From Chloroflexota bacterium (GTDB lineage Bacteria; Chloroflexota; Limnocylindria; P2-11E): DNA of 64,000 nt. Below, piece after piece: positions 13,581-30,710 of the stretch. How positions within the stretch are numbered: the stretch's first letter is position 1; each line of letters begins with the position of its first letter. Under the pieces are notes generated by a model, which saw only the letters and a list, made by a program, of their open reading frames with translations, was not told the origin of the DNA and did not search any database. The DNA is taken from NCBI GenBank assembly GCA_016194865.1, contig JACQAT010000007.1, positions 62,001 through 126,000 of the forward strand. Reading direction: 5' to 3'. Made by a program: the position numbers and the translations under genes.

Positions 13581-13690
13581 CGCTCGCGCGGACTCCCAAC
13601 GTACTCCGCCCGGCTTCGCCGGGACGGTGAAGGTTGGATGCGCTCGCGCGGACTCCCAACGTACTCCGCCCGGCTTCGCCGGGACGGTGA
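13581..13690. repeat. Tandem 50-bp direct repeat with internal hairpins (60-bp period)
   Basis: Bases 13581-13630 recur exactly at 13641-13690. Each unit contains CCCGGC-TTC-GCCGGG and an overlapping GC palindrome, so each copy can fold. It fills the gap between ggt and the aminotransferase and looks like a REP-type dispersed element. Confidence 0.85.
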
Positions 13691-13696
13691 CGGCTG

Positions 13697-14851
13697 GTGA
13701 AAATGGAAGACACAAGGGTCGATCGCTGGCGCGACGAGTTCCCGATCACCCGTGACCTCATCTACCTCAACAATTGCTCGCTGACGCCCTTGCCGAAGCG
13801 TGGCGCGGCCGCGATCGCGGAGTACGCGCGCACCTGGACCGAGCTCGGTGGCCGTGCGTGGTACGACCACTGGGTCGGCGTGCTCGACGGGCTGCGCGGC
13901 GACTTCGCCGAGGTTCTTGGCGCGGATAGAGACGAGATCGCGCTCGAGCCGTCCGTCTCCGCGTCGCTCGTCTCGATCGCGTCGACGTTCGACTACACGA
14001 AGCGGCCGAAGGTGGTCGTGTCCGACATCGACTTCCCGACCGATGGCCACACCTGGCTCGCGCTGGAACGGCAGGGCGTCGAGGTCGTGTTCGTCCACAG
14101 CCCGGACCGCGCGACCGTGCCGCTCGAGCTGTTCGAGCGCGCCGTCGACGAGCGCACCGCGCTCGTCTGCACCGGCCATGTCTACTACACGAGCGGCTAT
14201 ATCCAGGACGTGCGGGCGCTCGCCGAGATCTGTCACCGCAAGGGCGCCGCGCTCGTCGTCGACGCGTACCAGTCGGTCGGCGCGTTCCCGTTCGACGTGC
14301 ACGCGAGCGGCGTCGACTTCCTGGTCGGTGGCACGCTCAAGTGGCTCATGGGTGGGCCGGGGATGGCCTTCGCCTACGCCAGGCGCGATCGCATCGACGC
14401 GGCGCGGCCGACGGCGCTGGGCTGGTGGGCCATGGCCGATCCGTTCACGTTCGACGTCGAGCACCTCTCGCTCGCGCCGAGCGCGCGGCGCTTCGAGTAC
14501 GGCACGCCCGCCGTCGCGGCCGCGTACACGGCACGCGCGGGGATCGCGCTGCTGCGTGAGATCGGCATCCCGACGGTCCGCGCGCGGCACATGGAGCTGT
14601 CGCAGCACCTCGTCGAGGGCGCGCTGGCCCAGGGCTGGACGCTGCGCTGCCCGCGAGACGCGTCGAAGCGCACGCCGATCGTCACGCTCGAGCATCCCGA
14701 GCCCGCGCGCGTCGTGACCGCATTGCGCGCGAGCGGCTGCATCGTGGACTACCGACCGGGTCTGGTACGGCTGTCACCGCACTACTTCAACACGTTCGCC
14801 GAGATCGATCGCACGCTCGAGCTTCTCGCGTCGCTGCGCGTCGCGGCCTAA
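13697..14851 (+). CDS. Aminotransferase class V-fold PLP enzyme
   Basis: 384-residue fold-type I PLP enzyme related to cysteine desulfurases and kynureninases. It has an N-terminal IYLNNCSLTPLP block, the cofactor Asp in VVDAYQSVGAFPFDV, and the Schiff-base Lys in FLVGGTLKWLMGGPG. GTG 13697 and ATG 13703 are both possible. No cysteine is seen in the position of the desulfurase catalytic loop, so desulfurase activity is not implied. It is preceded by the tandem repeat and converges with the next gene. Confidence 0.83.
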   Translation: MKMEDTRVDRWRDEFPITRDLIYLNNCSLTPLPKRGAAAIAEYARTWTELGGRAWYDHWVGVLDGLRGDFAEVLGADRDEIALEPSVSASLVSIASTFDYTKRPKVVVSDIDFPTDGHTWLALERQGVEVVFVHSPDRATVPLELFERAVDERTALVCTGHVYYTSGYIQDVRALAEICHRKGAALVVDAYQSVGAFPFDVHASGVDFLVGGTLKWLMGGPGMAFAYARRDRIDAARPTALGWWAMADPFTFDVEHLSLAPSARRFEYGTPAVAAAYTARAGIALLREIGIPTVRARHMELSQHLVEGALAQGWTLRCPRDASKRTPIVTLEHPEPARVVTALRASGCIVDYRPGLVRLSPHYFNTFAEIDRTLELLASLRVAA

Positions 14852-15746: not shown

Positions 15747-16486
15747 GCGATCCGGCCGACCGCGATCTGCTCGTGCTCGCGAAGACCATCGCCGCGAACG
15801 AGTTCCCGGTCGAGCGTCCCTCCGTGGTCGGCGTAGATCGCGAGACGGGTGGGCTGCTGCGGCTGACGCCCTTCCCCTGGAAGGGCAACGACAGCGATCC
15901 GCCGGTGCAGCGCTGGACCTGGCTGCACGCGAGCGCCGGCAACGCGCCGCGCGACCCGAGGCGCGATTCGCGCGAGGTCTCGGGGGAGCTGCTGACGACC
16001 GCCTACGTCGACGCCAAGGATGGCTGGAGATTGCGACGGCCGTTCATCCGTCCCCTTGAGCGCGGCTCGCTCGAGGAGCTGCAATCGATCGGCCGGGCGG
16101 GCGGCCCGACGCTGGGGATCGTCGTCCCGTCGGAGCAGGCGGACGTGCTGCAGCTGCCGCTGCGCCTGCGCTTCCGCTGCGCCGACGAGGCGTGCACGAC
16201 CGCGCACGACCTGCCGGTCCTCGATTGGGAGCTGCACGAGATGGCGCGCGTCACCCGCGAGCGGCACGGCGCGCGGTGGGCGACGCGCTTCCGTGAGACC
16301 TGGGGCGCGGCGCTGTTCGCGCGCTACGACGTGCGGCTCGTCGTGTCGGCGTACGCCCAATCGCCCGCGAAGCACTACGTGGCGGCCGTCATCGCGGTCC
16401 CGAAGGAGCTGGAGGATGCGCACGAGCACCTGCACCACACCGAGCACCGCAAGCACTTGCGCGAGGGCGGGGCCGCGGCCTCCTAG
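15743..16486 (+). CDS. Uncharacterised protein with CADEAC...H and LDWEL motif
   Basis: 247-residue protein. Its centre has a Cys/His cluster (RCADEACTTAHDLPVLDWEL) of a kind seen in uncharacterised proteins where a zinc knuckle precedes a DWE motif. Strand-rich N-terminal half (VVGVDRETGGLLRLTPF) and a His-rich tail (HEHLHHTEHRKH) follow. Coupled to the DinB-like gene by GTGA. Its stop shares CTAG with the convergent regulator gene. Function unknown. Confidence 0.65.
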   Translation: MSDPADRDLLVLAKTIAANEFPVERPSVVGVDRETGGLLRLTPFPWKGNDSDPPVQRWTWLHASAGNAPRDPRRDSREVSGELLTTAYVDAKDGWRLRRPFIRPLERGSLEELQSIGRAGGPTLGIVVPSEQADVLQLPLRLRFRCADEACTTAHDLPVLDWELHEMARVTRERHGARWATRFRETWGAALFARYDVRLVVSAYAQSPAKHYVAAVIAVPKELEDAHEHLHHTEHRKHLREGGAAAS

Positions 16487-17088
16487 AACGTCGGCGGCGT
16501 GATGATCCAGATCGCCTCAACGACCACGCTGCCGGCGTTCCGGTACCAGTGCGGCGCGGTGCTGGCGTAGGAGATCGAGTCGCCAGCTTCCAGCGTGTGG
16601 GTCACGCCAGCGACGTGCACCTCGTGCGTGCCACTGACGATGTAGCCCACCTCCTCGCCTTCGTGGACGAAGGGAGTGGCTTCGGTCGACATGCCCGGCG
16701 GCACTCGGAGGTAGATCACCTCGAGCTGGTGGTCGAGGTCAGGCGTGAGCAGCTCGTAGATCGTGCCGTCACCGTGTATCGCGTTGTGAGGGTTGAGCCG
16801 GCGTCGCTGATCACCGCGCACCACGGGCGAGATCGTCGGCTTCGGGTCGGGACCGAGCTCAACGAGCTGGGCAACGGACACGCGGAGCGCGTGGGCGATC
16901 CGGACCAGGGTCGCAAATGAGGGGTTGCCGAAACCACGCTCGATCTGGCTGAGGGACCCGAGACTGCAGCCGCTTCGGGCGGTCAGGTCTTCGAGCGTAA
17001 GCGCGCGGTCCATCCGGAGCTGCCGGATCTGCTGGCCGAGAGCGCGCGTGAGATCGGGTGGGAGGGGATTCGGCTTGACCGCGGCCAC
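16483..17088 (-). CDS. XRE-family transcriptional regulator with cupin domain
   Basis: 201 residues: an N-terminal helix-turn-helix (LGQQIRQLRMDRALTLEDLTARSGCSLGSLSQIERG, positions 17-52), a linker, and a C-terminal cupin (GMSTEATPFVHEGEEVGYIVSG ... LEAGDSISY) that usually binds the effector. It is divergent from the catabolic operon that begins at 17171, and the gap carries palindromes, so it probably autoregulates and controls that operon. The start is GTG 17088; a perfect TATAAT on this strand lies at 17136-17131. Confidence 0.9.
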   Translation of the reverse strand: MAAVKPNPLPPDLTRALGQQIRQLRMDRALTLEDLTARSGCSLGSLSQIERGFGNPSFATLVRIAHALRVSVAQLVELGPDPKPTISPVVRGDQRRRLNPHNAIHGDGTIYELLTPDLDHQLEVIYLRVPPGMSTEATPFVHEGEEVGYIVSGTHEVHVAGVTHTLEAGDSISYASTAPHWYRNAGSVVVEAIWIITPPTF

Positions 17089-17101
17089 AAGCTCTCCCTA
17101 A

Positions 17102-17140
17102 TCGATATTGACAGAATGAAGATTGACTTCATTATATCGA
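17102..17140. promoter_or_regulatory. Divergent promoter with nested inverted repeats (putative XRE-cupin operator)
   Basis: The inner palindrome AATGAAGATTGACTTCATT spans 17115-17133. Outer arms TCGATAT (17102-17108) and ATATCGA (17134-17140) form a second inverted repeat with a slightly shifted centre. The plus-strand promoter reads TTGACA (17108-17113), 16 bp, CATTAT (17130-17135). The minus-strand -10 TATAAT is 17136-17131. The operator overlaps both promoters. The stretch is conspicuously AT-rich. Confidence 0.7.
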
Positions 17141-17170
17141 AATCACAGCGGGCGAGGGCGTGGGGAAGCC

Positions 17171-18553
17171 GTGAATGAAGCCGGGAAGATCTCGGTGATC
17201 GAGCCAAGCCGCAGGGTGCCCGTGGTCGCCGAGACCGACGTGCTCGTCGTGGGCGGCGGCCCGGCCGGCGTTGGCGCAGCGGTCGCCAGCAGTCGCGAGG
17301 GCGCCCGGACACTGCTCACCGAGCGCTATCCGTACCTCGGCGGCATGGCGTCCGGCGGGATGGTCCTCGTCATCGACGACATGATGGATGGGCCGCGTCA
17401 GACGGTGCTCGGCATCGCTCAGGAATTCTCCGAGCGTCTGGAGCGGATCGGTGCGGCCGTCTATCCGCCGGTCGAGGATCGGTACCGGGCGGACCAGGAA
17501 CTCTGGAACAAGTGGGCGAGATGGGGGGCCATCGACCTCTACGCGCACGGCCGCATGAAGCCGATCACCTACGCCGTGGCCTTCGACCCCGACGGCTGGA
17601 AGCGCGTGTCCAACGATCTGGTGCGCGACGCGCGGGTGGAGCTCCGGCTTCACAGCTGGTTCAGCCGGCCGATCATGGAGGGCGACCGCATCGCCGGCGC
17701 CATCTTCGAGACGCCGGAGGGTAGGCAGGCCATCCGCGCGAAGATCGTCATCGACGCCACCGGCGACGCCGCGGTGGCGGCTCAGACGGGCGCTCCGATC
17801 GAGCAAGGCCGTTACTTCATCACGCTCGTGCACCGCTACGGCGGCGTGGACACCGATCGGGCGATCCGCTTCGAGATCGAGCATCCCAAGAATGCGGCGG
17901 CGCTCAACAGCGAGGCCAAGCGGCTGCTCGGCGGGTCGTGGGACATGTGGTGGCTGCTCACCCCGCTGCCCGGCGTCATCTGGTGCAACTGTCCCCACCT
18001 GCGCGGCTACGACAGCACCTCGGTGGAGGACCTGACCAGGGCCGAGTTCGACGCGCGGGCGAAGATCGTGAGCACGTTCAAGTTCGCGAAGGAGAACATC
18101 CCCGGTTTCGAGAACGCATTCCTGCTCGACGTAGCGCCCCAGATGGGGGTCCGGCAGGGCCGGCTCCTCCAGGGCGAGTACGTGGTCACGGCCGAGGACA
18201 TCCAGGAGGGGCGCTGGTTCCCCGACAGCGTCGCCCGAGGGCGCGATTACTTCACGCCGTACCGCGCCCTCGTGCCGAAGCGGCTCGATCAGCTGCTGGT
18301 CGCGGGACGGTGCTACTCGGCCACTCCGATCGCGCAGCGCAGCAGCCGCGAGATCGGGCCGTGCGTGGTGATGGGGCAAGCGGCAGGGGTCGCCGCCGCC
18401 GCCGCGCTGGACGCGGGCGTCACCGTGCGAGCCGTCGATGTCCCGACCGTCCAGCGGCGACTCAGAGCGCAGGGTGCGGATCCGGGCGACGTGCCGCCGA
18501 CCGCCGCCGCCGAGCTCGTCACGGCCGCCATGGGGCGTGGGGCGGAGCGCTGA
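17171..18553 (+). CDS. FAD-dependent oxidoreductase (FAD_oxidored type)
   Basis: First gene of the 17-25 kb operon. Dinucleotide-binding motif VLVVGGGPAGVGAAVASSREG with the acidic end at LLTERYPYLGGMA identifies a two-domain FAD enzyme. The C-terminal LLVAGRCYSATPIAQRSSREIGPCVVMGQAAG is typical of the PF12831-like group. About 460 residues. GTG 17171 is preferred over the longer frame that reaches back to 17123, because that one would lie inside the operator. The substrate is unknown; it may oxidise or dehydrogenate the compound the operon degrades. Confidence 0.87.
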   Translation: MNEAGKISVIEPSRRVPVVAETDVLVVGGGPAGVGAAVASSREGARTLLTERYPYLGGMASGGMVLVIDDMMDGPRQTVLGIAQEFSERLERIGAAVYPPVEDRYRADQELWNKWARWGAIDLYAHGRMKPITYAVAFDPDGWKRVSNDLVRDARVELRLHSWFSRPIMEGDRIAGAIFETPEGRQAIRAKIVIDATGDAAVAAQTGAPIEQGRYFITLVHRYGGVDTDRAIRFEIEHPKNAAALNSEAKRLLGGSWDMWWLLTPLPGVIWCNCPHLRGYDSTSVEDLTRAEFDARAKIVSTFKFAKENIPGFENAFLLDVAPQMGVRQGRLLQGEYVVTAEDIQEGRWFPDSVARGRDYFTPYRALVPKRLDQLLVAGRCYSATPIAQRSSREIGPCVVMGQAAGVAAAAALDAGVTVRAVDVPTVQRRLRAQGADPGDVPPTAAAELVTAAMGRGAER

Positions 18554-19728
18554 TGGCCCTTCCGCTGGACGGCGTTCGCGTCGTGGACCTCACCCAGGTC
18601 GAGTTCGGTCCGGTCTGCACGCAGGCGCTCGGCGACTTCGGCGCGGATGTCATCAAGATCGAGCGTCCGGGAGTCGGCGACCTCTCGCGCTCGGCCATCC
18701 AGGACTCGGCGGGCCTGGACAATCCGGTCTATCTCAGCCTCAACCGGAACAAGCGCAGCCTCGAGCTCGATCTGCGGAAGGCCGAGGGGCGCCGGGTCGT
18801 CCACGACCTGGTCGCGCGGTCCGACGTCATCGTCAACAACTTCCGTCCAGGCGTGATGGAGCGCCTCGACCTGGGCTACGAGCGGCTTCGCGAGATCAAT
18901 CCGCGGATCATCTACGCGTTCGGCTCGGGCTTCGGCAGCGCCGGCCCGTACGCTCACAAGGGCGGGCAGGACGTCCTCGCCCAGGCGCTCACCGGCGCGA
19001 TGGCCCGTCGGGCCGATCCGAGCCATCCGCTCGCCATCTATGCCACCGCCCTCGCCGACTACACCGCCGGGATGCTCATGACGCAGGGCATTCTCCTGGC
19101 GCTCCTGGCTCGTGAGCGGACCGGCGAAGGCCAGCGGGTCGACGTCTCGCTCTACGACGCGCTCCTCTCGATGCAGCTGCAGGAAGCGACGATGTCGCTC
19201 ATGCGGGGGGTCGAGCTGAACTGGGCCGCGAAGCCGCTCTCCGGCGTCTTCCCGACCGAGGACGGCGCCATCGTCATCGTGGGCGCGTTCAAAGCGAACC
19301 CGCTGCGCGACATCTGCGCCGCGCTCGAGCTCGACGATCTCTCACTGCTTCCGGAGTACGCGACCGAGGGGGCGCAGGTCGCCAACCGCGCGCAGCTCCA
19401 GCTGGCGTTCGCGCAGCGGATCGCGCAGTCACCGACCGCGCACTGGATCGGGCGTCTCGAAGCGGTCGACATCCTCTGCGCTCCGGTGCTGCCCCTGAGC
19501 ACGGCGCTCGCGGACGCGCAGGTCGCCGCCAACGAGATGGTCTGGCGCATCCCGCATGCGGCGGGCGAGGTCGCCACGCTCGCCAACCCGGTGAAGCTGT
19601 CGGCGACGCCGGCCTGCGCTCGCCGCGGCCCGCCGCGACTCGGCGAGCACACCGTCGAGGTCCTGCGCGAGCTCGGCTATTCAGCAGAGCGGATCGACGC
19701 GCTGGTCGCGTCGGGCGTGCCGACGTGA
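18553..19728 (+). CDS. CaiB/BaiF-type (family III) CoA-transferase
   Basis: Moves CoA from a CoA-thioester to a free carboxylic acid. The N-terminus LDGVRVVDLTQVEFGPVCTQALGDFGADVIKIE is a family hallmark, with NRNKRSLELDLRK following. The catalytic Asp is in TALADYTAGM. Length of 391 is standard. It starts within the preceding stop (TGATG) and ends in GTGA with the hydratase gene. It probably activates the operon's substrate or an intermediate to its CoA ester. Confidence 0.93.
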   Translation: MALPLDGVRVVDLTQVEFGPVCTQALGDFGADVIKIERPGVGDLSRSAIQDSAGLDNPVYLSLNRNKRSLELDLRKAEGRRVVHDLVARSDVIVNNFRPGVMERLDLGYERLREINPRIIYAFGSGFGSAGPYAHKGGQDVLAQALTGAMARRADPSHPLAIYATALADYTAGMLMTQGILLALLARERTGEGQRVDVSLYDALLSMQLQEATMSLMRGVELNWAAKPLSGVFPTEDGAIVIVGAFKANPLRDICAALELDDLSLLPEYATEGAQVANRAQLQLAFAQRIAQSPTAHWIGRLEAVDILCAPVLPLSTALADAQVAANEMVWRIPHAAGEVATLANPVKLSATPACARRGPPRLGEHTVEVLRELGYSAERIDALVASGVPT

Positions 19729-20504
19729 GCGGCATCCTCTACGAGCTCAAGGACCACGTGGCGCGCGTCACGATCGACCGGCCCCAGGTCCTCAACGCCA
19801 TCGATCCGGCCACCGAGCGGGAGCTGGAGCGGATCTGGGCGCGCATCGAGCCCGACCGGGACGTCTGGGTCGTCGTCGTCACCGGTGCCGGCGACCGCGC
19901 GTTCTCCGTCGGCTTCGACGTCAAGGCGCAGGAGGTGGAGCCGGGGCTCGCCTACTGGGCCCGGGAGCGGCCAGGTGGCTTCGGCGGTCTCGCGCTCCGC
20001 CGGACCCTCAACGTCCCGGTGATCGCCGCCGTGAACGGATACGCGTTGGGCGGCGGTATGGAGATCGTCCTCGGCTGCGACATCGTGGTCGCCGTGGAGG
20101 AGGCGCGCTTCGGGCTGACCGAGCCGCGGATCGGGTGGCTCCCGCTCGACGGCGGCGTGTTCCAGCTGGTCCGGCAGCTACCCCACCGGCTGGCGATGGG
20201 CATGCTCCTCACCGGGGAGCAGATCAGCGCCGCCGAGGCGTACCGCTACGGCCTGATCAACGAGGTCGTCCCGCGCGGCGGGCTCGCGGAGGCGGTGCAG
20301 CGCTGGGTCGACCGGGTGCTCCTGTGCGCTCCGCTGTCCCTGCGGGCCATCAAGGAGATGGTGCAACGGACGGCGGCCATGCCGGTGGAGGACGCGATCC
20401 GAATGCGCTTTCCCGCGCTGATCGAGGCGCTGGGATCCGAGGATGCGATCGAGGGGGTCAAGGCATTTCAAGAAAAGCGAACGCCGCGGTGGCGGGGGTC
20501 GTGA
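19725..20504 (+). CDS. Enoyl-CoA hydratase/isomerase (crotonase) family
   Basis: 259-residue crotonase. The oxyanion-hole segment is GDRAFSVGFDVKA, and the two acidic positions of hydratases are present: Glu in YALGGGMEIVLGCD and Glu in FGLTEPRIGW. This supports hydration (or ring opening/isomerisation) of a CoA ester made by the preceding transferase. GTG 19725 overlaps the upstream stop. Confidence 0.92.
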   Translation: MSGILYELKDHVARVTIDRPQVLNAIDPATERELERIWARIEPDRDVWVVVVTGAGDRAFSVGFDVKAQEVEPGLAYWARERPGGFGGLALRRTLNVPVIAAVNGYALGGGMEIVLGCDIVVAVEEARFGLTEPRIGWLPLDGGVFQLVRQLPHRLAMGMLLTGEQISAAEAYRYGLINEVVPRGGLAEAVQRWVDRVLLCAPLSLRAIKEMVQRTAAMPVEDAIRMRFPALIEALGSEDAIEGVKAFQEKRTPRWRGS

Positions 20505-20624
20505 CCAGCGGCCCGCGGGGAGGAGGGGGAGAGCGCTTCTGGCAATCGCGTGTCCGAACCAGGTGACGCGCTCGTCCGGCAGGGCGACCAGGCTCTGACC
20601 CGATCGCGCGGAAAGGGGCGATCC

Positions 20625-21722
20625 ATGACCAACGCGAAGGACTCGCTGTCACTCACTCGTCGCGGACTCCTGCGCGCGGGCGGTGCCCTGTCGCTCGGCG
20701 CCATGGGCACTGGACTGCTCGCCGCCTGCGCGCCGGCGGCCCAGCCGGCGTCCCTGCCGACCGCGACCTCCGCCGCCGCCGCGGCGACCCAGGTCGCGAC
20801 GCCGAAGCCGCCGCAGCCAGTGAGCATGCGCCTCGGCTGGCTCGCGAACTCGCAGTACGCGGGCGACTTCGTCGCGCTCGACAAGGGCTACTACAAGGAG
20901 CGCGGGATCGACCTCCGGATCGACCCGGGTGGGCCGAACATCGATCCGGTCTCGCTGACCGCGAGCGGCTCGAACACGATCGGGAACGTCTCCTCGATCG
21001 CGGCGATGTTCCTCGCGCGCTCGAACGGCATCCCGGTGCGGGCCTTCGCCACCGCACTCCAACGCCATCCCTTCGCGTTCATCACGCTCGATCAGAGCAT
21101 CAAGTCCCCCGAGGACTTCGTCGGCAAGAGGATCGGCATCCAGGCCACCGCGCGCCCGCTCATCGATGCGGTCATCGCGAAATACAAGCTGCCGCGCGAC
21201 AAGATCACGATCTCGGTGATCGGCTCGGAGACCGTTCCGCTGCTGACCAAGCAGGTCGACATCATCACCGCCTGGGTCATCGACGCACCGCAGATGGCCG
21301 CGGTCGGCCCCGGCGCGAAAGCGCTGCTCCTCTGGGACATGGGCATTCAGCTCTACGCGTTCACCTACTTCACCACGGATGAGGTGCTCAAGAGCCGCCC
21401 CGACATGCTCGCCGACTTCGTGGCCGCGAGCGCCAAGGGGTGGGAGTGGGCCGCCGATCATCCGGAGGAGGCCACCGACATCACGCTGAAGTACGCGAAG
21501 GATCTGAAGCGCGACCTCGAGCTGGCGACGTGGAAGCAGGAGAGCTCCTTCCTCTGGTCGGCCAAGACGAAGGAGCAGGGCTGGGGTTGGATGGAGCCCC
21601 AGGTGTGGGACGAGGCGATCAGGGTCTACGGCGATCTCGGCCTGCTCAAGGCGCCGATCACCTCAAAGGACGCGATGACCCAGGAGATCCTGCAACGTGT
21701 CGCCAGCCGACCCAAGCGCTAG
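20625..21722 (+). CDS. ABC transporter substrate-binding lipoprotein (NMT1/SsuA-like)
   Basis: Extracytoplasmic receptor. Signal sequence with twin arginines (LTRRGLLRAGGALSLG) and a lipobox LLAAC, so probably Tat-exported and lipid-anchored. The mature part begins with a low-complexity Pro/Ala/Thr linker, then LGWLANSQYAGDFVALDKGYYKERGI, typical of nitrate/taurine/thiamine-precursor-type binding proteins. The start ATG 20625 has GAAAGGGG upstream. The 120-bp gap before it is the only sizeable spacer in the operon and may hold a secondary promoter. Confidence 0.92.
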   Translation: MTNAKDSLSLTRRGLLRAGGALSLGAMGTGLLAACAPAAQPASLPTATSAAAAATQVATPKPPQPVSMRLGWLANSQYAGDFVALDKGYYKERGIDLRIDPGGPNIDPVSLTASGSNTIGNVSSIAAMFLARSNGIPVRAFATALQRHPFAFITLDQSIKSPEDFVGKRIGIQATARPLIDAVIAKYKLPRDKITISVIGSETVPLLTKQVDIITAWVIDAPQMAAVGPGAKALLLWDMGIQLYAFTYFTTDEVLKSRPDMLADFVAASAKGWEWAADHPEEATDITLKYAKDLKRDLELATWKQESSFLWSAKTKEQGWGWMEPQVWDEAIRVYGDLGLLKAPITSKDAMTQEILQRVASRPKR

Positions 21723-22503
21723 CCGGATCGACCTGGCAGCGATCCAGCTCGAGGAGGTGGGGATGACGTTCCCCACCTCCTCGGTTCCGCTGCGCGTGCT
21801 CGAAGCCGTGAGCCTCGCGGTCCGGCCGGGCGAGTTCGTGTCGCTGCTCGGACCGTCCGGATGCGGCAAGTCGACGGTCCTGCGGCTTGTCGCGGACATC
21901 CTCGTGCCCACCGATGGACGCATCACCGTCAACGGCGAGAGCCCGGAGACGGCACGCCGCCGCCGCGCCTTCGGCTTCGTTTTCCAGGACGCGACACTGC
22001 TCGCCTGGCGGAGCACCCTTGAGAACGTCCTGCTGCCGCTCGAGATCAGCGGCGACGCGAGCCGGGGGCGCGAGCGCGCCCGGCGACTGCTCGATCTCGT
22101 CGGCCTCGCGAAGTTCGAGAGTGCCTACCCCTGGCAGCTGTCGGGAGGGATGCGTCAGCGCGTCGCCATCGCGCGCGCGCTGGTCACGGAGCCGCGGATC
22201 CTGCTCATGGACGAGCCCTTCGGTGCCCTCGATGAGATCACGCGTGAGTACATGAACCTTGAGCTGCTGCGCATCTGGCAGGCGACCGCGACGACGATCT
22301 TCTTCGTGACCCACAGCTCCCCGGAAGCCGTCTTCCTGTCCGACCGCGTGGTCGTGCTGGGCACGCGGCCGGGACGGGTCAAGCTCGATCTGGCGGTCGA
22401 CCTGCCACGCCCGCGCGATCCGGCGCTCAAGGAGACGGTGGAGTTCGCGCGTTACACGGCGGCGCTCCGGCGGACGCTCGTAGGGGAAACCAGGCTCGAA
22501 TGA
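21697..22503 (+). CDS. ABC transporter ATP-binding protein (SsuB/TauB-like)
   Basis: 268-residue ATPase of the importer. Walker A GPSGCGKST, Q-loop VFQDATLLAW, signature LSGGMRQR, Walker B LLMDEPFGALDE and H-loop VTHSSPEA are all intact. GTG 21697 lies 26 nt inside the preceding gene. It ends in ATGA with the permease. Confidence 0.95.
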   Translation: MSPADPSASRIDLAAIQLEEVGMTFPTSSVPLRVLEAVSLAVRPGEFVSLLGPSGCGKSTVLRLVADILVPTDGRITVNGESPETARRRRAFGFVFQDATLLAWRSTLENVLLPLEISGDASRGRERARRLLDLVGLAKFESAYPWQLSGGMRQRVAIARALVTEPRILLMDEPFGALDEITREYMNLELLRIWQATATTIFFVTHSSPEAVFLSDRVVVLGTRPGRVKLDLAVDLPRPRDPALKETVEFARYTAALRRTLVGETRLE

Positions 22504-23306
22504 TGGCTATCGCCGCCGCGCGGCAGACTCCCCGCGGCCGCGTCGCCGCGCTGATCCGCCAATTCGGGCTGCCGGCGCTCGGCATCCTGACGATCCTCGG
22601 CTACTGGGAGCTGCACATTCGCCTGTTCAGCGTGCCGAATTACCTGATGCCACCTCCCTCGCTCATCGCGGTCACGCTGGTCGAGGAGTGGCCGACGCTC
22701 GAACGCAACGTCGGCACGACGGTGATCGAGGCCGTCGGCGGGTTCCTCCTCGGCAACGCGGTCGCGATCCTGCTCGCCGTCCTGTTCGTCCACAACCGGC
22801 CGATGGAGCGCACGCTCTTCCCGGTCGCGGTCGCTGTGCGCACGGTGCCGATCATCGCCATCGCGCCGATCCTCGTGCTGCTGCTCGGCAACGGCTACGC
22901 GCCGAAGGTGGTCATCGCCGCGCTCATCTCGTTCTTTCCGACGCTCGTGAATATGGTGCGCGGCCTCCAGGCGGTCGAGACGTCGGCGCTCGAGCTCATG
23001 CGCGTCCTCTCCGCGACCAAGGCACAGGTCTTCTTCAAGCTGCGGCTGCCCTCCTCGCTGCCATTCCTCTTTGCGGCGCTGAAGATCGCGACCGCCTCCT
23101 CGGTCATCGGGGCGATCGTCGCGGAGTGGATCGGCGCGGACACCGGTCTCGGCTACCTGATCGTCATCTCGACGTTCGAGTTCCGCACCGGCCTCCTCTA
23201 CGCCACGACCGCGGTGGCATCGTTCCTTGCGCTCGCGCTCTTCCTGTCGGTCGTTGCGCTCGAGCGGCTCATCGTCCGCTGGCAGCCGGATACACCACGC
23301 CAGTGA
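22500..23306 (+). CDS. ABC transporter permease (SsuC/TauC-like)
   Basis: 268-residue membrane protein with six hydrophobic segments and the ATPase-contact (EAA-like) region ETSALELMRVLSATKAQVFFKLRLPSSLPFLF. Completes the importer with the two preceding genes. Overlaps at both ends (ATGA, GTGA). Confidence 0.94.
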   Translation: MMAIAAARQTPRGRVAALIRQFGLPALGILTILGYWELHIRLFSVPNYLMPPPSLIAVTLVEEWPTLERNVGTTVIEAVGGFLLGNAVAILLAVLFVHNRPMERTLFPVAVAVRTVPIIAIAPILVLLLGNGYAPKVVIAALISFFPTLVNMVRGLQAVETSALELMRVLSATKAQVFFKLRLPSSLPFLFAALKIATASSVIGAIVAEWIGADTGLGYLIVISTFEFRTGLLYATTAVASFLALALFLSVVALERLIVRWQPDTPRQ

Positions 23307-24592
23307 GCGGGGCGTCGCTCACGCTGCTCGCGGACGAGGTGCTCACGCTCGACGCGGCCGGGACGGTCTATGCGCCCGGTGCCGTCGTGATCGAGGGCCC
23401 GCGCATCCGCGCGGTCGGGCCGCCGCCCGCGGCGGCGAGCGGCGAGGTCGCCGACCTCCGCGGCTGCGTCCTCCTGCCCGGGCTCATCAACGTGCACACG
23501 CACACTCCGATGTGGCTCTTTCGAGGACTCACCGAGGATGTACCCCGTGGCGAGTGGCTGACCGGGCGGATGCGCCCACTGGAACGGCGGGTCGGCGTGC
23601 CCGAGCTCCGCGCGGGCGCGCGGGCCGGCTGCCTGGAGCTCCTGCTCAACGGCGTGACGACCATCGCCGACCGGTACGGGCACATGGCCGACATCGCCGG
23701 CGCGGTCGAGGAGAGCGGCCTGCGCGCTGTGATCGCGCACTCGCTGTACGACGACAGCGTGGAGCGCGAGCTCCCGATCGCGGAGGCGCTGCTCGAGCGG
23801 TTCGGTACCGACCCGAGGCGCTCGCGTGTCTGGGCCGGCCTCGGCCCCCATGCCACCGACACCTGCGGCCCCGACCTGCTGCGGCGCGTGCAGGCGCTCG
23901 CGGAGCGCACCGGCGCGCGCGTCTTCATTCACCTCGCGCAGTCGGAGCAGGAGGTCGCCGAGGTGCGCCGCCAGGGCCACGCGGGGTGCGCTTCGTACCT
24001 TGACGAGGTGGGGCTCCTCGGCCCGACCGTGGTCGCGGCGCACGCGATCTATCTCACTGATGAGGAAGCCGACCTGGTCGGTCGCCGCGGGACCGCGGTC
24101 GCTCACTGTCCGAGCAGCAACGCGAAGCTCGAGGGTCGCGTCGCACCGATCGGCCGGCTGCGGCGAGCGGGTGCCATCGTCGGGCTCGGAACCGACGCGG
24201 CCTGTTGCAACAACGCGATGGACCTGTTCGCCGAAATGAGGGTCGCCGGGCTGCTGAACAAGGTCGCCGCGGATGATCCCGCCGCGCTTCCAGCCAGCGA
24301 CCTGCTTCGCATGGCCACGATCGACGCTGCCAGCGCGCTCGGCATCGCCGATCTGGTCGGGACGCTCGAGCCGGGCAAGCGTGCGGACATCATCGCCGTG
24401 TCGCGGCAGGCACCGCACCTGCTGCCCTGGCACGACGCCACCCCCAACCTGGTGTACGCGGCACGAGGCTCCGACGTCGTCGCGGTCTTCGTCGACGGGA
24501 GACCCATCGTGCTGGAACGCCGTCCGGTCCACCTCGATCCGGAGCGGATCGTCGCCGAGGCAACGCGCGCCGCCTTGTCGCTCGCAGGATGA
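23303..24592 (+). CDS. Amidohydrolase (ATZ/TRZ and cytosine-deaminase-like)
   Basis: 429-residue metal-dependent hydrolase, last gene of the operon. Metal ligands appear in NVHTHTPM, HLAQSEQE, AAHAIYLTDEE and the Asp of GTDAACCNNAMDLFAEM; PSSNAKL is the usual substrate-loop block. The family removes amino or other groups from N-heterocycles (melamine-type, S-adenosylhomocysteine, hydroxyatrazine). Its place after a dedicated importer suggests that it acts on the imported compound, perhaps first. GTG 23303 overlaps the permease stop. Confidence 0.9.
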   Translation: MSGASLTLLADEVLTLDAAGTVYAPGAVVIEGPRIRAVGPPPAAASGEVADLRGCVLLPGLINVHTHTPMWLFRGLTEDVPRGEWLTGRMRPLERRVGVPELRAGARAGCLELLLNGVTTIADRYGHMADIAGAVEESGLRAVIAHSLYDDSVERELPIAEALLERFGTDPRRSRVWAGLGPHATDTCGPDLLRRVQALAERTGARVFIHLAQSEQEVAEVRRQGHAGCASYLDEVGLLGPTVVAAHAIYLTDEEADLVGRRGTAVAHCPSSNAKLEGRVAPIGRLRRAGAIVGLGTDAACCNNAMDLFAEMRVAGLLNKVAADDPAALPASDLLRMATIDAASALGIADLVGTLEPGKRADIIAVSRQAPHLLPWHDATPNLVYAARGSDVVAVFVDGRPIVLERRPVHLDPERIVAEATRAALSLAG

Positions 24593-25050: not shown

Positions 25051-25918
25051 GGATCGCAGTATGACGGCCCGGACCGTGACGGTCGTGGGCGCGCGCATGC
25101 GCGTGATCGGATCCTCCGCGGGAACGCGCGAGCCCGTGCTCCTCGTCCACGGGGTCGGGGGCTGGGCCGAGAACTGGCGCGAGACGCTGCGGGCCCTCGA
25201 GGCCGCGGGGCATCCCGCGTACGCCCTCGATCTCCCTGGCTTCGGTCAGAGCGAGCGCGTGCGCCGCGCGCGCTACTTCGATGCCGCGCGCCCGTTCTAC
25301 GCCGAGCTCATCGTCGGCACGCTTGACGCGCTGGGCCTGGCCCATGCGCATCTCGTGGGTCATTCGTTGGGCGGCGCCATCGCGTACACCGCGGCGGTCC
25401 ACGCGCCGGATCGCTTCAGCTCCCTGGTGCTCGTCGCGGGCGCCGGCCTCGGCCTGGAGGTCGCCTTCTCGCTTCGCCTCGCGGCCCTGCCGGGAATGGG
25501 GCTGCTCGCGCGGCTGCGCGGTCGCAGGTACGCGCGCGCCGGCCTCGCGAGCTGCTTCCTCGATCCTCGCCGTGCGCCGGAGGAGCTGTGGCTCGAGGCG
25601 GATCGCTACGTGCCTCCGTCGCTCGGCGAGACGATCCGCGTGCTGCGTCACGGGCTCACGCTTCGCGGCGTGCGGCCGCGGCTTCGCGAGGCCTGGGCGG
25701 CGCGCGCCCCTCGCTTCACCCGGCCGGTCCTCGTCGTATGGGGCCGCGAGGACGTCGTCATCCCAGTGGCTGCCGCCACAGCGGCGCGCGAGCTGTTCCC
25801 GCGCGCGGAGGTCGTGGTGATCCCCGACGCGGGGCACTTGGTGATGATCGAGCAGCCGAGCGCCTTCGCGCGGGCGCTGCTTCCGTTCCTCGACCGCGTG
25901 GCACCATTGCCGCGGTGA
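25049..25918 (+). CDS. Alpha/beta hydrolase
   Basis: 289 residues, complete triad: Ser in VGHSLGGA, Asp in VVWGREDVVIP and His in IPDAGHLVMIE. The HGVGGWAENW segment forms the oxyanion hole. ATG 25049 follows TAATAA by 6 nt; ATG 25061 is in frame. It overlaps the dehydrogenase gene as GTGA, so it is co-transcribed with the 2-oxoacid dehydrogenase cluster. Substrate unknown. Confidence 0.87.
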   Translation: MDRSMTARTVTVVGARMRVIGSSAGTREPVLLVHGVGGWAENWRETLRALEAAGHPAYALDLPGFGQSERVRRARYFDAARPFYAELIVGTLDALGLAHAHLVGHSLGGAIAYTAAVHAPDRFSSLVLVAGAGLGLEVAFSLRLAALPGMGLLARLRGRRYARAGLASCFLDPRRAPEELWLEADRYVPPSLGETIRVLRHGLTLRGVRPRLREAWAARAPRFTRPVLVVWGREDVVIPVAAATAARELFPRAEVVVIPDAGHLVMIEQPSAFARALLPFLDRVAPLPR

Positions 25919-28347
25919 AGGCGGGCGTGGACGCGCGCGCGACCGGGATCGTCACGCCGAAGGCGAAGCTGCGGCTCTCGGCCGACGAGATCGTCGCGGA
26001 TTATCGCCTTGCGTTCCGCAGCCGCATCGCGAGCGTGTTCGGCCGGCGCGAGGTGCTCACCGGGAAGGCGCCGTTCGGTATCTTCGGCGACGGCAAGGAG
26101 GTCGCCCAGCTCGCGCTCGCGAAGACGTTCCGCAAGGGCGACTGGCGCACCGGCTACTACCGGGACCAGACGCTGGCGCTCGCCACGGGCATGGCGACCC
26201 TCGCGCAGTTCTTCGCCCAGCTCTACGCGGACGCGGACGTGGACCGCGACCCGTTCTCGGCGGGCCGTCAGATGGTGAGCCACTTCGCGTCGCGCAGCCT
26301 CGACGAGCAGGGCCATTGGCGGCGGATCGTCGACCTGATGAACAGCGCCTCGGATCTGTCACCCGTCGCGGCGCAGCTGCCCCGCGCTCTCGGCCTCGCG
26401 TACGCGTCGAAGCTGGTCCGCAACGACAGCGGCATGCGCGCGGTGACCGGCGACGTCTCGCGCAACGGCGACGAGGTCGCGTTCGCGACGGTCGGCAACG
26501 CGGGGACGAGCGAAGGCCTCTTCTGGGAGACGCTCAACGCCGCGGGCGTGCTCCAGGTCCCGCTCGCCATCTCTGTCTGGGACGACGGCTTCGGCATCTC
26601 CGTGCCGAACGAGCTGCAGACGACCAAGGGCTCGATCTCGGCCGTCCTCCAGGGCTTCACGCCCGATGGCGGACCGGGCGTCGACGTCCACGTCGCCAAG
26701 GGCTGGGACTACGTCGCGCTCTGCGACATGTACGCGCTCGGGATCGCGAAGGTGCGGGCGCAGCACGCGCCGGCGCTGTTCCACATCACCGAGATGACGC
26801 AGCCCCAGGGCCACTCCACGAGCGGGAGCCACGAGCGCTACAAGTCAAAGGAACGCCTGCGGTTCGAGACGGAAGGTGATCCGATCTCGCGCATGCGCGA
26901 ATGGATGGTGCGCGAGCGGCTGGCCACGGCATCGCAGCTCGACGCGTACGAGATCGAGGATCGCAAGGCGGTCGAGGAGATCCGCGGCGAGGCGTACGAC
27001 GCGTTCATCAACCCGCTGCGGGAGGAGCGCGACCGCGCCGTGCGGCTCCTCGAGCGCGCGGCCGATCAGGACGCGCTGCGCAGCATCGTCGACGAGCTGC
27101 GCAGGGCCGAGCCGAGCCGCCGGTCCGTGCACGCGGCGCTCGCTCGCGCGCTGTTCGCGCTTCGCGCGAGCGACGATCCTGCCCGGGACGAGATCGCGCG
27201 CGGTCTCGAGGCCCACGGACGCGAGGCGAGCGCGCGCTACAACTCGCACCTCATCAGCGAAGCGGACTCTTCTCCGCTGCGCGTGACCCCGGTGCCGCCG
27301 GTCTACAGCGAGTCGTCGGAGACCGTCGACGGACGCGTCATCCTGGTCCGCTGCTTCGACCGCAATCTCGCGCGCGATCCGCGGATCTTCGTGATCGGCG
27401 AGGACGTCGGCAAGCTCGGCGACGTGAATCTCGTGTTCGAAGGGCTCAACGCGAGATACGGCGATCTGCGGATCACGGATACGGGGATCCGGGAGGCGAC
27501 GATCCTGGGGCAGGGCATCGGCACCGCGCTCCGCGGCCTGCGGCCGATCGTGGACATCCAGTACGTCGACTACCTGCTCTATGCGCTGCAGGTCGCGTCC
27601 GACGACCTCGCCACGCTCCGCTTTCGCACCGCCGGTGGTCAGAGCGCGCCGGTGATCATCAGGACGAAGGGCCATCGCCTGCAGGGGATCTGGCACACCG
27701 GCTCCCCGATGGGCATGATCCTGAGCGCGCTCCGCGGCATCCACCTCTGCGTACCGCGCGACATGACCCAGGCCGCGGGCCTCTACAACACGCTGCTCCG
27801 CTCCGACGATCCCGCCATCGTCGTCGAGGTGCTGAACGGATACCGCGTGAAGGAGCGCGTGCCCGACAACGTCGGCGAGTTCATGCTTCCGCTCGGCGTG
27901 CCCGAGGTCGTGCGCGAAGGCACCGATGTCACGGTTGCCACGTACGGCGCGCTCGTCCGGATCGCGCTGGAGGCATGCGCGACCCTGGCGGACGCGGGCA
28001 TCTCGGTCGAGCTGATCGACGCGCGGACCCTGTCGCCATTCGACCGCGATCATCTCTGCGCGGCCTCCGTGCGAAAGACCGGCGCCTTGCTGGTGCTCGA
28101 TGAGGACGTGCCGGGCGGGGCCTCCGCGTACCTGATGCGCCACATCATCGAGGTCCAGGGCGCGTCGGATCACCTCGACGTCGGCCCGCGCACGCTGACC
28201 GCGAAGGACAACCGCGCGGGCGTCGGGCAGGACGCGGACTACTTCGCGAAGCCGAACCGCGAGGACATCGTGGAGGCGATCTACGAGCTCATGCGCGAGC
28301 GGCGACCGAAGGACCTCCCCGCGCTGCGGGAGCGCCCGATTCACTAG
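25915..28347 (+). CDS. 2-oxoacid dehydrogenase E1, fused alpha and beta subunits
   Basis: 810-residue thiamine-diphosphate decarboxylase component. The alpha half (about 1-380) has FATVGNAGTSEGLFWETLNAA for ThDP/Mg binding; the beta half (from about 470) starts with FVIGEDVGKLGDVNLVFEGL and ends with a transketolase C domain. Helical linker between. The full fusion acts as a stand-alone E1 for pyruvate, branched-chain or acetoin-type substrates; which one cannot be told. GTG 25915 overlaps the hydrolase stop. Oddly it is followed by another complete E1 beta gene. Confidence 0.9.
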   Translation: MKAGVDARATGIVTPKAKLRLSADEIVADYRLAFRSRIASVFGRREVLTGKAPFGIFGDGKEVAQLALAKTFRKGDWRTGYYRDQTLALATGMATLAQFFAQLYADADVDRDPFSAGRQMVSHFASRSLDEQGHWRRIVDLMNSASDLSPVAAQLPRALGLAYASKLVRNDSGMRAVTGDVSRNGDEVAFATVGNAGTSEGLFWETLNAAGVLQVPLAISVWDDGFGISVPNELQTTKGSISAVLQGFTPDGGPGVDVHVAKGWDYVALCDMYALGIAKVRAQHAPALFHITEMTQPQGHSTSGSHERYKSKERLRFETEGDPISRMREWMVRERLATASQLDAYEIEDRKAVEEIRGEAYDAFINPLREERDRAVRLLERAADQDALRSIVDELRRAEPSRRSVHAALARALFALRASDDPARDEIARGLEAHGREASARYNSHLISEADSSPLRVTPVPPVYSESSETVDGRVILVRCFDRNLARDPRIFVIGEDVGKLGDVNLVFEGLNARYGDLRITDTGIREATILGQGIGTALRGLRPIVDIQYVDYLLYALQVASDDLATLRFRTAGGQSAPVIIRTKGHRLQGIWHTGSPMGMILSALRGIHLCVPRDMTQAAGLYNTLLRSDDPAIVVEVLNGYRVKERVPDNVGEFMLPLGVPEVVREGTDVTVATYGALVRIALEACATLADAGISVELIDARTLSPFDRDHLCAASVRKTGALLVLDEDVPGGASAYLMRHIIEVQGASDHLDVGPRTLTAKDNRAGVGQDADYFAKPNREDIVEAIYELMRERRPKDLPALRERPIH

Positions 28348-28350
28348 ACT
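28345..28350 (+). promoter_or_regulatory. -10 box TAGACT, leaderless promoter inside the cluster
   Basis: TAGACT overlaps the stop of the fused E1 gene and ends 6 nt before GTG 28357, so E1 beta, E2, lipA and lipB could be transcribed independently of the fused E1. Confidence 0.6.
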
Positions 28351-28356
28351 TCATCT

Positions 28357-29340
28357 GTGGCCGAGAAGACCAACGTGCAAGCGGTCCACGACGCGCTCTT
28401 CGACGAATTCAAGCGCGACCCGAGGCTGATCATCGTCGGCGAGGATGTCGGCGCGCGGGGCGGTGTGTTCCGCGTGACGGACGGGTTCATCGAAGCCTTT
28501 GGGGCCGAGCGCGTCATCGACGCGCCCTTGGCGGAATCCTCCATCGTCGGTGTCTGCATCGGCGCCGCCATCGGCGGCCTGCTGCCCATCGCGGAGATGC
28601 AGTTCGCGGACTTCAGCGCGCCGGCGTTCGAGCAGATCGTCGACGAGGCGGCGCGGATGCGATATCGCTCCAACGGCGCGTTCGGCGTGCCGCTCGTGAT
28701 CCGCATGCCCTGGGGCGCGGGCGTGCGCGGCGCGCTGTACCACTCGCAGTCCGTCGAGGCGTTCTTCGCGCATGTGCCGGGCCTCAAGGTCGTCGTGCCG
28801 AGCACGCCCTACGACATCGCGGGCATGCTGCGGTCCGCGATCCGCGATCCCGACCCCGTCGTCTTCCTCGAGCACAAGGCCACGTACCGCTCGGTGAAGG
28901 GCGACGTGCCGGACGGCGAGTACACGATCCCGCTGGGGCCGGCCGATGTGAAACGAGAAGGCACCGATCTCACGGTCTTCGCCTATGGGCTGATGCTGCA
29001 TCACTGCCTGAGCGCTGCGACACAGCTCGAGGCCGAAGGCATCTCGGTCGATGTCGTCGACGTTCGCAGCCTGCGCCCGCTCGACGCGGACACGATCGTT
29101 CGCGAGGCGCGGAAGACGGGCAAGTGTCTTGTTGTGTATGAGGACAACAAGCTCTATGGCGCGGGCGCGGAGATCGCCGCGCTCATCGCCGAAGAGGCAT
29201 TCGACGATCTCGACGCGCCGGTCATGCGCATCGGCGGGCCCGAGATCCCCGCCACGCCGTTCAACAAGCCGCAGGAGGACTGGTACATGCCCGATCCGCT
29301 GAAGATCGCGACGAAGATGCGAGAGCTGGCGGCGTACTGA
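28357..29340 (+). CDS. 2-oxoacid dehydrogenase E1 beta subunit
   Basis: 327 residues: LIIVGEDVGARGGVFRVTDG, the AESSIVGVCIGAAIGGLLPIAE block and a C-terminal transketolase domain (VVDVRSLRPLDADTI). It resembles pyruvate/branched-chain E1 beta more closely than the beta half of the fused protein does. There is no separate alpha gene here, so a partner is either elsewhere or supplied by the fused E1. Ends in TGATG with the E2 gene. Confidence 0.92.
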   Translation: MAEKTNVQAVHDALFDEFKRDPRLIIVGEDVGARGGVFRVTDGFIEAFGAERVIDAPLAESSIVGVCIGAAIGGLLPIAEMQFADFSAPAFEQIVDEAARMRYRSNGAFGVPLVIRMPWGAGVRGALYHSQSVEAFFAHVPGLKVVVPSTPYDIAGMLRSAIRDPDPVVFLEHKATYRSVKGDVPDGEYTIPLGPADVKREGTDLTVFAYGLMLHHCLSAATQLEAEGISVDVVDVRSLRPLDADTIVREARKTGKCLVVYEDNKLYGAGAEIAALIAEEAFDDLDAPVMRIGGPEIPATPFNKPQEDWYMPDPLKIATKMRELAAY

Positions 29341-30710
29341 TGGCCAGCTTCGAGCTCAAGATGCCGAAGCTCGGTGAATCGGTCACCGAGGGGACCATCG
29401 GCAAGTGGCTGAAGCAGCCCGGCGAAAAGGTCGCCAAGTACGACCTGCTGGTCGAGGTGCAGACCGACAAGGTCAACACCGAGATCCCGTCCGAGGTCGA
29501 CGGTGTGCTCCGCGAGATCCGCGTCAAGGAGGGCGAGACGGTCGCCGTTGGCACGCCGCTCGCGGTGTTCGAGACGGCGGGGGCGGACGTCGCGGCGCCC
29601 GCGACGGAAGTCTCCGCGAGGGCGGGGACGCCGGGGCCGCCTGCCGCGGGCGTGCTCGCCGGCTCGCCTCCGTCATCCACCTCGCGCGTCGTGCCGCCGG
29701 CTCAAGCACCCGCGCTGGCGGCCCCGGCGTCCCCGCCCTCACCGCCTCCTGTGCCAGTGCCGGCGGCGGCTTCGGCCGCGCCTCCGCCTCGGGCTGGCGA
29801 GGACGTGCGTGCTACGCCCGCTGTCAGGAAGCTCGCTGCGGAGCACAACGTCGATCTCGCTCGCATCGAGGGAAGCGGGCTTGGTGGGCGAGTGTCGAAG
29901 CATGATGTCGAGAAGTTCATCGCCCAGGGCGGGCAGCCCGCGGCGCGCTCCGGGAACGGGCAGCCCGCTGCCCCGGCGGGAGCCGCAGCGCATCCGCCGC
30001 CGCTCGTCGATGAGGTCGTGGCGCTTACGCCCATGCGCAAGGCGATCGCGAATGCGATGGTGTTGTCGAAGAGCACGATCCCGCATGCGGCCGCGATGAT
30101 GGAGATCGACTGGACCAACGTCGCGAAGTTTCGGAGGGCGGTGGGTGAGCAGTTCAAGGCCCGCGAGGGCTTCGAGCTGACCTATCTCCCGTTCGCGATG
30201 AAGGCGGTCTGCCTGGCGCTGCGGAACAACCCGCTGGTGAACGCCTCGTGGACCGATGCCGGTATCGCCAAGCACAAGGCCATCAACCTCGGGGTGGCGA
30301 TCGCGCTCGGCGACGAGGGCCTGGTCGTGCCGGTCGTGAAGAACGCCGAGGATCTTTCGATCACGGGTCTCGCGAAGGCGGTCCGCGACCTCGCGACGCG
30401 CGCCCGCGCGAAGAAGCTGACGCTCGCGGACTTCGAGGGCGGGACGTTCACGGTGAACAACGGCGGCACGCTCGGCACGTATCTGAGCTATCCGATTGTC
30501 AACCCCGGGCAGGGCGCCATCATGACGACCGAGGCCATCGGCAAGCGCGTGGTCGCGCTCGACGACGATTCCATCGGCATCCGCACGATGGGGAACGTGG
30601 TCATCTCCTTCGACCACCGCGTGATGGACGGCGCGACGGCGGCGCGGTTCCTCCGCGACGTGAAGGCCTGGATCCAGGCCGTCGACGCGAGCAACGTGTC
30701 GCTCTCATAG
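29340..30710 (+). CDS. Dihydrolipoamide acyltransferase (E2)
   Basis: 456 residues. N-terminal lipoyl domain with the lipoylated Lys in [13 protein letters not shown] (about residue 44), a long Ala/Pro/Ser linker, a peripheral-subunit-binding domain ([32 protein letters not shown]), and a catalytic domain ending in [16 protein letters not shown] with the active His and Asp. Only one lipoyl domain. No E3 gene lies in the cluster. The lipA and lipB genes directly downstream supply the cofactor. Confidence 0.95.

Follow-up and report, generated by a model that had tools for sequence, protein, structure and literature searches.

Several described systems share parts with the operon analyzed here. 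The carnitine cai/fix system (CaiB, CaiD, FixC, and FixX) combines a family III coenzyme A (CoA)-transferase with a crotonase, a flavin adenine dinucleotide (FAD)-dependent oxidoreductase, and a ferredoxin-like protein. ThiXYZ is an importer of thiamin precursors, the COG0402 family includes deaminases of 5'-methylthioadenosine (MTA), S-adenosylhomocysteine (SAH), and 5'-deoxyadenosine, and C5 pathways of the Weimberg or hydroxyproline type, which have sugars or hydroxyproline as starting compounds, operate without such a CoA-transferase, crotonase, or deaminase. The operon lies at positions 16483 to 24592 of a 64-kb window (the whole stretch of DNA that was analyzed) from the metagenome-assembled genome of a Chloroflexota soil bacterium (G000; 1.38 Mb, 66% complete). 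It comprises seven codirectional genes and a divergent XRE-cupin regulator gene, all eight of which were confirmed as real by coordinates and profile matches (Table 1). The cluster is best explained as a laterally mobile module with a core that is not unique to the source organism. We favor, at somewhat less than even confidence, the reading that this module is catabolic and serves the import of a nucleoside, or of a compound much like one, and its degradation via a CoA thioester.

Like cai/fix, the operon encodes a family III CoA-transferase, a crotonase, and an FAD oxidoreductase, with a ferredoxin-like protein in its relatives, but its flavoprotein belongs to PF12831, its transporter and deaminase are unrelated, and it lacks CaiA, CaiC, CaiE, and FixAB. 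The NMT1-type binding protein (nearest fold, ThiY), ATPase, and permease resemble ThiXYZ; however, the binding protein is only about 22 to 28% identical over the aligned structure, and the linked enzymes are CoA dependent rather than those of thiamin salvage. The amidohydrolase has its best matches among the MTA/SAH/5'-deoxyadenosine deaminases, but it stays under every equivalog cut-off and stands in a context of CoA-dependent catabolism. Finally, a dihydrodipicolinate synthase (DHDPS)-family protein and an alpha-ketoglutaric semialdehyde dehydrogenase, as in the C5 pathways, are encoded by many relatives of the operon, whereas the window operon has neither gene. In line with the first-pass annotation, which had been made from the sequence and knew of no named pathway with the same set, none was found in annotation or in open-access full texts, a coverage that is incomplete and leaves subscription papers outside. 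The open-access literature also yielded nothing relevant on the gene set, on the R. leguminosarum pRL11 locus tags, on nucleoside oxidase, or on nucleoside uronates. New here are the broad distribution of the core, an operator-like site, and a shift of the likely substrate class toward nucleosides.

The full set of eight genes is conserved, gene order and divergent regulator included, in two further Chloroflexota genomes that belong to the family of the source organism (G003, L040/L048; G022, L041/L047), with protein identities of 75 to 82%. Together with the codirectional arrangement of the seven genes, this corroborates the earlier proposal of a single uptake-plus-degradation operon. In G022 (L047), an aldehyde dehydrogenase gene directly follows and overlaps the amidohydrolase gene as a ninth member. 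The genes had also been described as overlapping or abutting. This is true of four of the six junctions (FAD/CoA-transferase, 1 nucleotide [nt]; CoA-transferase/crotonase, ATPase/permease, and permease/amidohydrolase, 4 nt each) but not of the crotonase and binding-protein genes, which are separated by 120 nt. The G+C content of the cluster is 0.695, compared to 0.70 in its surroundings. Since a close FAD orthologue was present in 3 of the 28 genomes of the family sample, the cluster is sporadic within the family.

Outside the family, the FAD/CoA-transferase/crotonase core, mostly with the importer, was found at 49 to 71% identity in Alpha- and Gammaproteobacteria, Actinobacteria, Acidobacteria, and Chloroflexota, in soil, plant-associated, and marine bacteria that include Rhizobium johnstonii 3841 and Paracoccus versutus. 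Identity of the FAD protein was 81 to 82% in close relatives and 51 to 63% in other phyla. A plasmid tblastn search with this protein returned about 60 records at 52 to 60% identity and then fell to ≤35%; at least 532 relatives were detected when 84,980 species genomes were scanned. With the seed genome counted in each case, a relative was present in 15 of 385 Alphaproteobacteria genomes and in 2 of 395 genomes of one Actinobacteria class. Distant relatives at approximately 30 to 35% identity (Polaromonas, Sulfitobacter, and Roseibium plasmids) have different neighborhoods; that in Polaromonas resembles sugar-acid genes, a weak hint at a flavoprotein family acting on hydroxyls.

A comparison of gene neighborhoods, as had been proposed, covered 91 loci. 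The FAD gene was present at all of them, the CoA-transferase and crotonase genes at 86 each, and the importer genes at 73 (permease), 71 (ATPase), and 68 (binding protein). Further partners were a ferredoxin (54 loci), a LysR regulator (49), a DHDPS-family protein (40), an aldehyde dehydrogenase (33), the amidohydrolase (24), a short-chain dehydrogenase/reductase (SDR; 21), the XRE-cupin regulator (20), a major facilitator superfamily (MFS) transporter (16), and a cytidine deaminase (CDA)-type deaminase (8). In many Actinobacteria, the MFS transporter takes the place of the ATP-binding cassette (ABC) importer, with the XRE-cupin regulator beside it. The homologues are not merely single genes, and a gene set exclusive to the source organism is contradicted by the widespread core. 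This core is found in at least several hundred genomes, where it is annotated by family names only; naming the substrate would annotate all of them.

The chemistry of the core is suggested by its catalytic residues. The CoA-transferase scored 366.7 bits with PF02515, above the cut-off, and has the catalytic Asp at position 169 in the motif DYTAG. In the crotonase, the two catalytic Glu residues of hydratases correspond to Glu113 and Glu133, both invariant in 17 orthologues. L115 is a locus without a detected crotonase, and its FAD gene is immediately preceded by one for a MaoC-type dehydratase. Because of the Asp, the invariant Glu pair, and the dehydratase at the crotonase-less locus, hydration or dehydration of a CoA thioester by the core is well supported, which upholds a CoA-thioester route for the carboxylic acid inferred earlier. 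More specific identities were rejected: formyl-CoA/oxalate CoA-transferase (TIGR03253, 255 versus 504 bits; NF003809, 263 versus 442), L-carnitine CoA-transferase (NF002914, 117.7 versus a cut-off of 413 bits), and, for the crotonase, crotonobetainyl-CoA hydratase (NF002936, 192 versus a cut-off of 500 bits). With the carnitine models so far below cut-off, and nothing specific to carnitine- or nicotinate-like acids, these previously suggested substrates found no backing.

The partner genes bear on the substrate. Of the 91 loci, 39 have deaminase-type genes, which are concentrated near the core (40 of 1,079 genes within 7 kb versus 3 of 474 at greater distances; Fisher P = 3e-4, for loci that are not fully independent). 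They fall into four groups: COG0402 amidohydrolase, adenosine deaminase, ADGF-like adenosine deaminase, and cytidine/dCMP deaminase. One adenosine deaminase (L063) scored above the TIGR01430 cut-off. The alternation of adenosine-deaminase-family, cytidine/dCMP-deaminase-family, and COG0402 genes at the locus agrees with the C-N bond postulated earlier and suggests that its nitrogen is an exocyclic amino group of a purine or pyrimidine. In Rokubacteria (L081, L083, L111, and L113), a uridine phosphorylase (279.1 bits versus a cut-off of 280.3) and a ComB-family phosphatase stand in place of the CoA-transferase and crotonase, while the importer, FAD gene, and amidohydrolase are retained; proline-racemase-family and DAO-family genes are in the same run. 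Moreover, 5'-nucleotidase-type genes lie beside the L119 operon, a thymidine kinase gene lies ahead of the L038 operon, and L114 has a hydantoinase-like amidohydrolase and a CN hydrolase. DHDPS-family proteins and dehydrogenases of the alpha-ketoglutaric semialdehyde type, which the aldehyde dehydrogenase of the relatives matches best (below cut-off), are typical of C5 acid pathways. Taken together, the deaminases, the phosphorylase and phosphatase of Rokubacteria, the ThiY/thiamin-like binding protein, and the C5-acid partners give moderate support to a ligand with an amino-purine or amino-pyrimidine ring and a sugar-like part.

A nucleoside 5'-carboxylate would be the simplest acid linking these parts, and the reaction chemistry that follows from it is hypothetical. 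The substrate would be imported via the ABC transporter and its ring deaminated by the amidohydrolase. The FAD oxidoreductase, with the ferredoxin in many relatives, would then oxidize the sugar, most simply from 5'-CH2OH to 5'-COOH. Thioester formation would fall to the CoA-transferase, perhaps with transfer of CoA from the product back to the substrate. The thioester would acidify H4', so that the crotonase could take away the 4' proton together with the 3'-OH; opening of the resulting enol ether would expel the base. The C5 remnant would be 2,5-dioxopentanoate from a deoxynucleoside or 4-hydroxy-2,5-dioxopentanoate from a ribonucleoside. Oxidation by the aldehyde dehydrogenase would yield 2-oxoglutarate in the first case and 4-hydroxy-2-oxoglutarate in the second. 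DHDPS-family aldolases are known to act on compounds of the latter type, and such an aldolase would split the product where needed. In the window genome, which has aldehyde dehydrogenase relatives elsewhere at 44% identity, the last step would depend on enzymes encoded outside the operon. As a whole, such a widespread, undescribed CoA-dependent oxidative nucleoside pathway, from C5' oxidation to a uronate via the thioester and beta-elimination of the base to a C5 oxo-acid that enters central metabolism, and with phosphorolysis plus phosphatase at the same point in Rokubacteria, seems possible but rather unlikely in this detail. Were the substrate a nucleoside, its degradation would take a course distinct from the classical routes by phosphorylase or hydrolase; owing to the conservation of the gene set, this can be tested directly in culturable strains.

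Several observations weigh against a nucleoside. The window operon itself encodes no nucleoside-cleaving or -deaminating enzyme above an equivalog cut-off; its amidohydrolase is below every one, as is the aldehyde dehydrogenase of the relatives. At more than half of the loci, no deaminase was detected in the vicinity; an adenosine deaminase or uridine phosphorylase is found in a minority and other deaminases in more, and the former two genes, the nucleotidases, and the kinase each occur at few loci, some of them noticed post hoc. A scan of 89 other codirectional neighbors gave no further nucleoside signal among the commonest families, and no competing theme besides transporters. Neither G022 nor the genome of the source organism, which is incomplete, yielded a DHDPS-family protein. 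The AlphaFold2 model of the FAD protein (predicted local distance difference test score, 86.9) matched a general GGR/FixC/PHBH-like flavoprotein fold in the PDB, with a query template-modeling score below 0.5, which is uninformative on the substrate, and we know of no precedent for 5'-oxidation by a PF12831 enzyme. The match of the binding protein hints equally at thiamin or hydroxymethylpyrimidine.

This last point leads to the strongest rival, owing to the relatives of the binding protein: catabolism of thiamin or its pyrimidine moiety (hydroxymethylpyrimidine or a relative). In this case, the ring would be deaminated, the side-chain alcohol oxidized to an acid and joined to CoA as a thioester, and the ring, once the crotonase had hydrated one of its C=C bonds, opened. 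The binding protein matches PF09084 (154.8 bits versus a cut-off of 20.5) and carries, by inspection, a Tat-like RR motif and a lipobox. By sequence and predicted fold, the closest solved proteins are 4nmy, with bound thiamin, and 3ix1, the N-formyl-aminopyrimidine-binding ThiY. As an alpha,beta-unsaturated thioester, a pyrimidine-5-carboxyl-CoA would be an appropriate crotonase substrate, and the 4-amino group would suit the deaminases. However, there are no thi genes among the annotated neighborhoods examined, and the uridine phosphorylase with the ComB phosphatase, the adenosine deaminases, the nucleotidases, and the sugar-acid-type aldolase and dehydrogenase would be left unexplained, so we consider this rival unlikely. 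Assignments to sulfonate uptake were rejected for the importer: the binding protein scored 42.5 versus 163.5 bits with the SsuA family model TIGR01728, and the best NCBIfam models of the ATPase were of the SaoA, taurine, or nitrate type, every one below cut-off. The best model of the permease was SaoP (90.5 versus a cut-off of 295).

Another N-heterocyclic carboxylic acid (nicotinate-, pterin-carboxylate-, or triazine-like) could be taken up as such and converted to the CoA thioester, the amidohydrolase cutting a ring C-N bond. An acid is indeed implied by the CoA-transferase and crotonase, and COG0402 amidohydrolases, the sole deaminase type at many loci, include triazine, 8-oxoguanine, and pterin-type deaminases. 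The amidohydrolase, however, reached 231 bits with MTA/SAH/adenosine-type deaminases but far less with atrazine chlorohydrolase (149 bits) and 8-oxoguanine deaminase (134 bits). Its best PDB match was the MTA/SAH deaminase 4f0r (1.7e-67), and its best NCBIfam models were PRK06038, PRK09045, and PRK07228, with the MTA/SAH/5'-deoxyadenosine equivalogs at 352/609, 324/540, and 310/522 bits (score/cut-off). Among relatives of known function, it thus appears most like the MTA/SAH/5'-deoxyadenosine deaminases. A Trp...Glu motif near the metal site was dropped as a ribose-binding signature, since guanine deaminases share it. With the nucleoside-specific partners also unaccounted for, a heterocyclic acid of this kind is a little less probable still than thiamin or its pyrimidine.

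Improbable are N6-substituted, cytokinin-like adenines, from which the deaminase would remove the N6 group, the FAD enzyme oxidizing the prenyl alcohol before a beta-oxidation-like step by the CoA-transferase and crotonase. The adenosine-deaminase-family and COG0402 enzymes, the SDR at 21 loci, and the rhizobia and rhizosphere isolates among the hosts are compatible with this idea, but marine and sludge hosts are likewise common, a thiolase was encountered at one locus only, and the DHDPS-family enzymes would have no role. Chance clustering of unrelated single genes, each from a family common by itself, is refuted by the neighborhood data, because the eight-gene order with the divergent regulator is kept in three genomes and the three core genes stand together at most loci in several phyla.

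Under the nucleoside reading, the XRE-cupin protein would repress the operon until an inducer is bound. The protein has the helix-turn-helix (HTH) and Cupin_2 domains that define the XRE-cupin (PuuR-like) class; identity with PuuR was rejected, the score being far under the NCBIfam cut-off (49.9 versus 211 bits). Orthologues with 75 to 78% identity occupy the same position in the two Chloroflexota relatives, and homologues with 41 to 46% identity adjoin the same operon core in the two Actinobacteria tested. The sequence between the regulator and FAD genes contains a sigma70-like promoter, TTGACA-GAATGAAGATTGACTTCAT-TATATC, whose hexamers scored 10/12 in a promoter scan. Between them, at 17117 to 17131, lies the palindrome TGAAG-N5-CTTCA, which was the single match of this motif in the 64-kb window and had none in 100 shuffles. 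Its arms and the hexamer regions are kept in L047 and L048, while the five central bases vary. A palindrome with conserved arms inside a promoter is the pattern of a repressor site, and this one is probably an operator. The earlier claim that the operon has its own regulator is thus strengthened by an orthologue that stays with it in three Chloroflexota, by the actinobacterial homologues, and by the palindrome. In Actinobacteria, the regions preceding XRE-cupin genes contain a single exact TGAAG-N5-CTTCA site (L103) and several looser ones; these sites are suggestive only. At L103 (7639 and upstream region), the exact palindrome and a one-mismatch copy precede an XRE-cupin gene beside the operon core.

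Table 1. Genes and promoter of the operon (positions in the window)
Feature	Position	Strand	Evidence or remark
XRE-HTH + cupin regulator	16483..17088	-	HTH_31/HTH_3 + Cupin_2; divergent from operon
Promoter with probable operator	17108..17138	+	TTGACA ... TATATC, inverted repeat between hexamers
FAD-dependent oxidoreductase	17171..18553	+	PF12831, FAD_oxidored, 3.4e-90; GTG start at 17171 inferred
Family III (CaiB/BaiF) CoA-transferase	18553..19728	+	PF02515 CoA_transf_3, 1.8e-109
Crotonase-family enoyl-CoA hydratase/dehydratase	19725..20504	+	PF00378 ECH_1, 3e-57
NMT1-type substrate-binding lipoprotein	20625..21722	+	PF09084, 3.9e-45
ABC importer ATPase	21763..22503 (alternative GTG start 21697)	+	PF00005 ABC_tran
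ABC importer permease	22500..23306	+	PF00528 BPD_transp_1
COG0402 (ATZ/TRZ-type) amidohydrolase	23303..24592	+	PF01979 Amidohydro_1, 1.3e-60; GTG start 23303 inferred

Other genes were noted around the operon. A separate adenosine-deaminase-family gene (3275 to 4255, + strand; PF00962, 7.8e-63) lies about 13 kb upstream, outside the operon, and an aldehyde ferredoxin oxidoreductase-family gene (PF01314/PF02730) lies at 4933 to 6711 (+ strand). Genes for xanthine-dehydrogenase-family FAD domains (PF00941) are present in the genome but unlinked to the operon. Between gamma-glutamyltranspeptidase and class-V aminotransferase genes, a 60-bp tandem repeat (13581 to 13697) has two copies with 96% identity, and one of its frames reads RSRGLPTYSARLRRDG. 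Directly downstream of the operon (25915 to 31654, + strand), a fused two-part E1 dehydrogenase gene (E1_dh and transketolase domains, 810 amino acids) is followed by a second E1-beta-like open reading frame and a lipoyl-domain-like one, possibly forming a 2-oxoacid dehydrogenase cluster.

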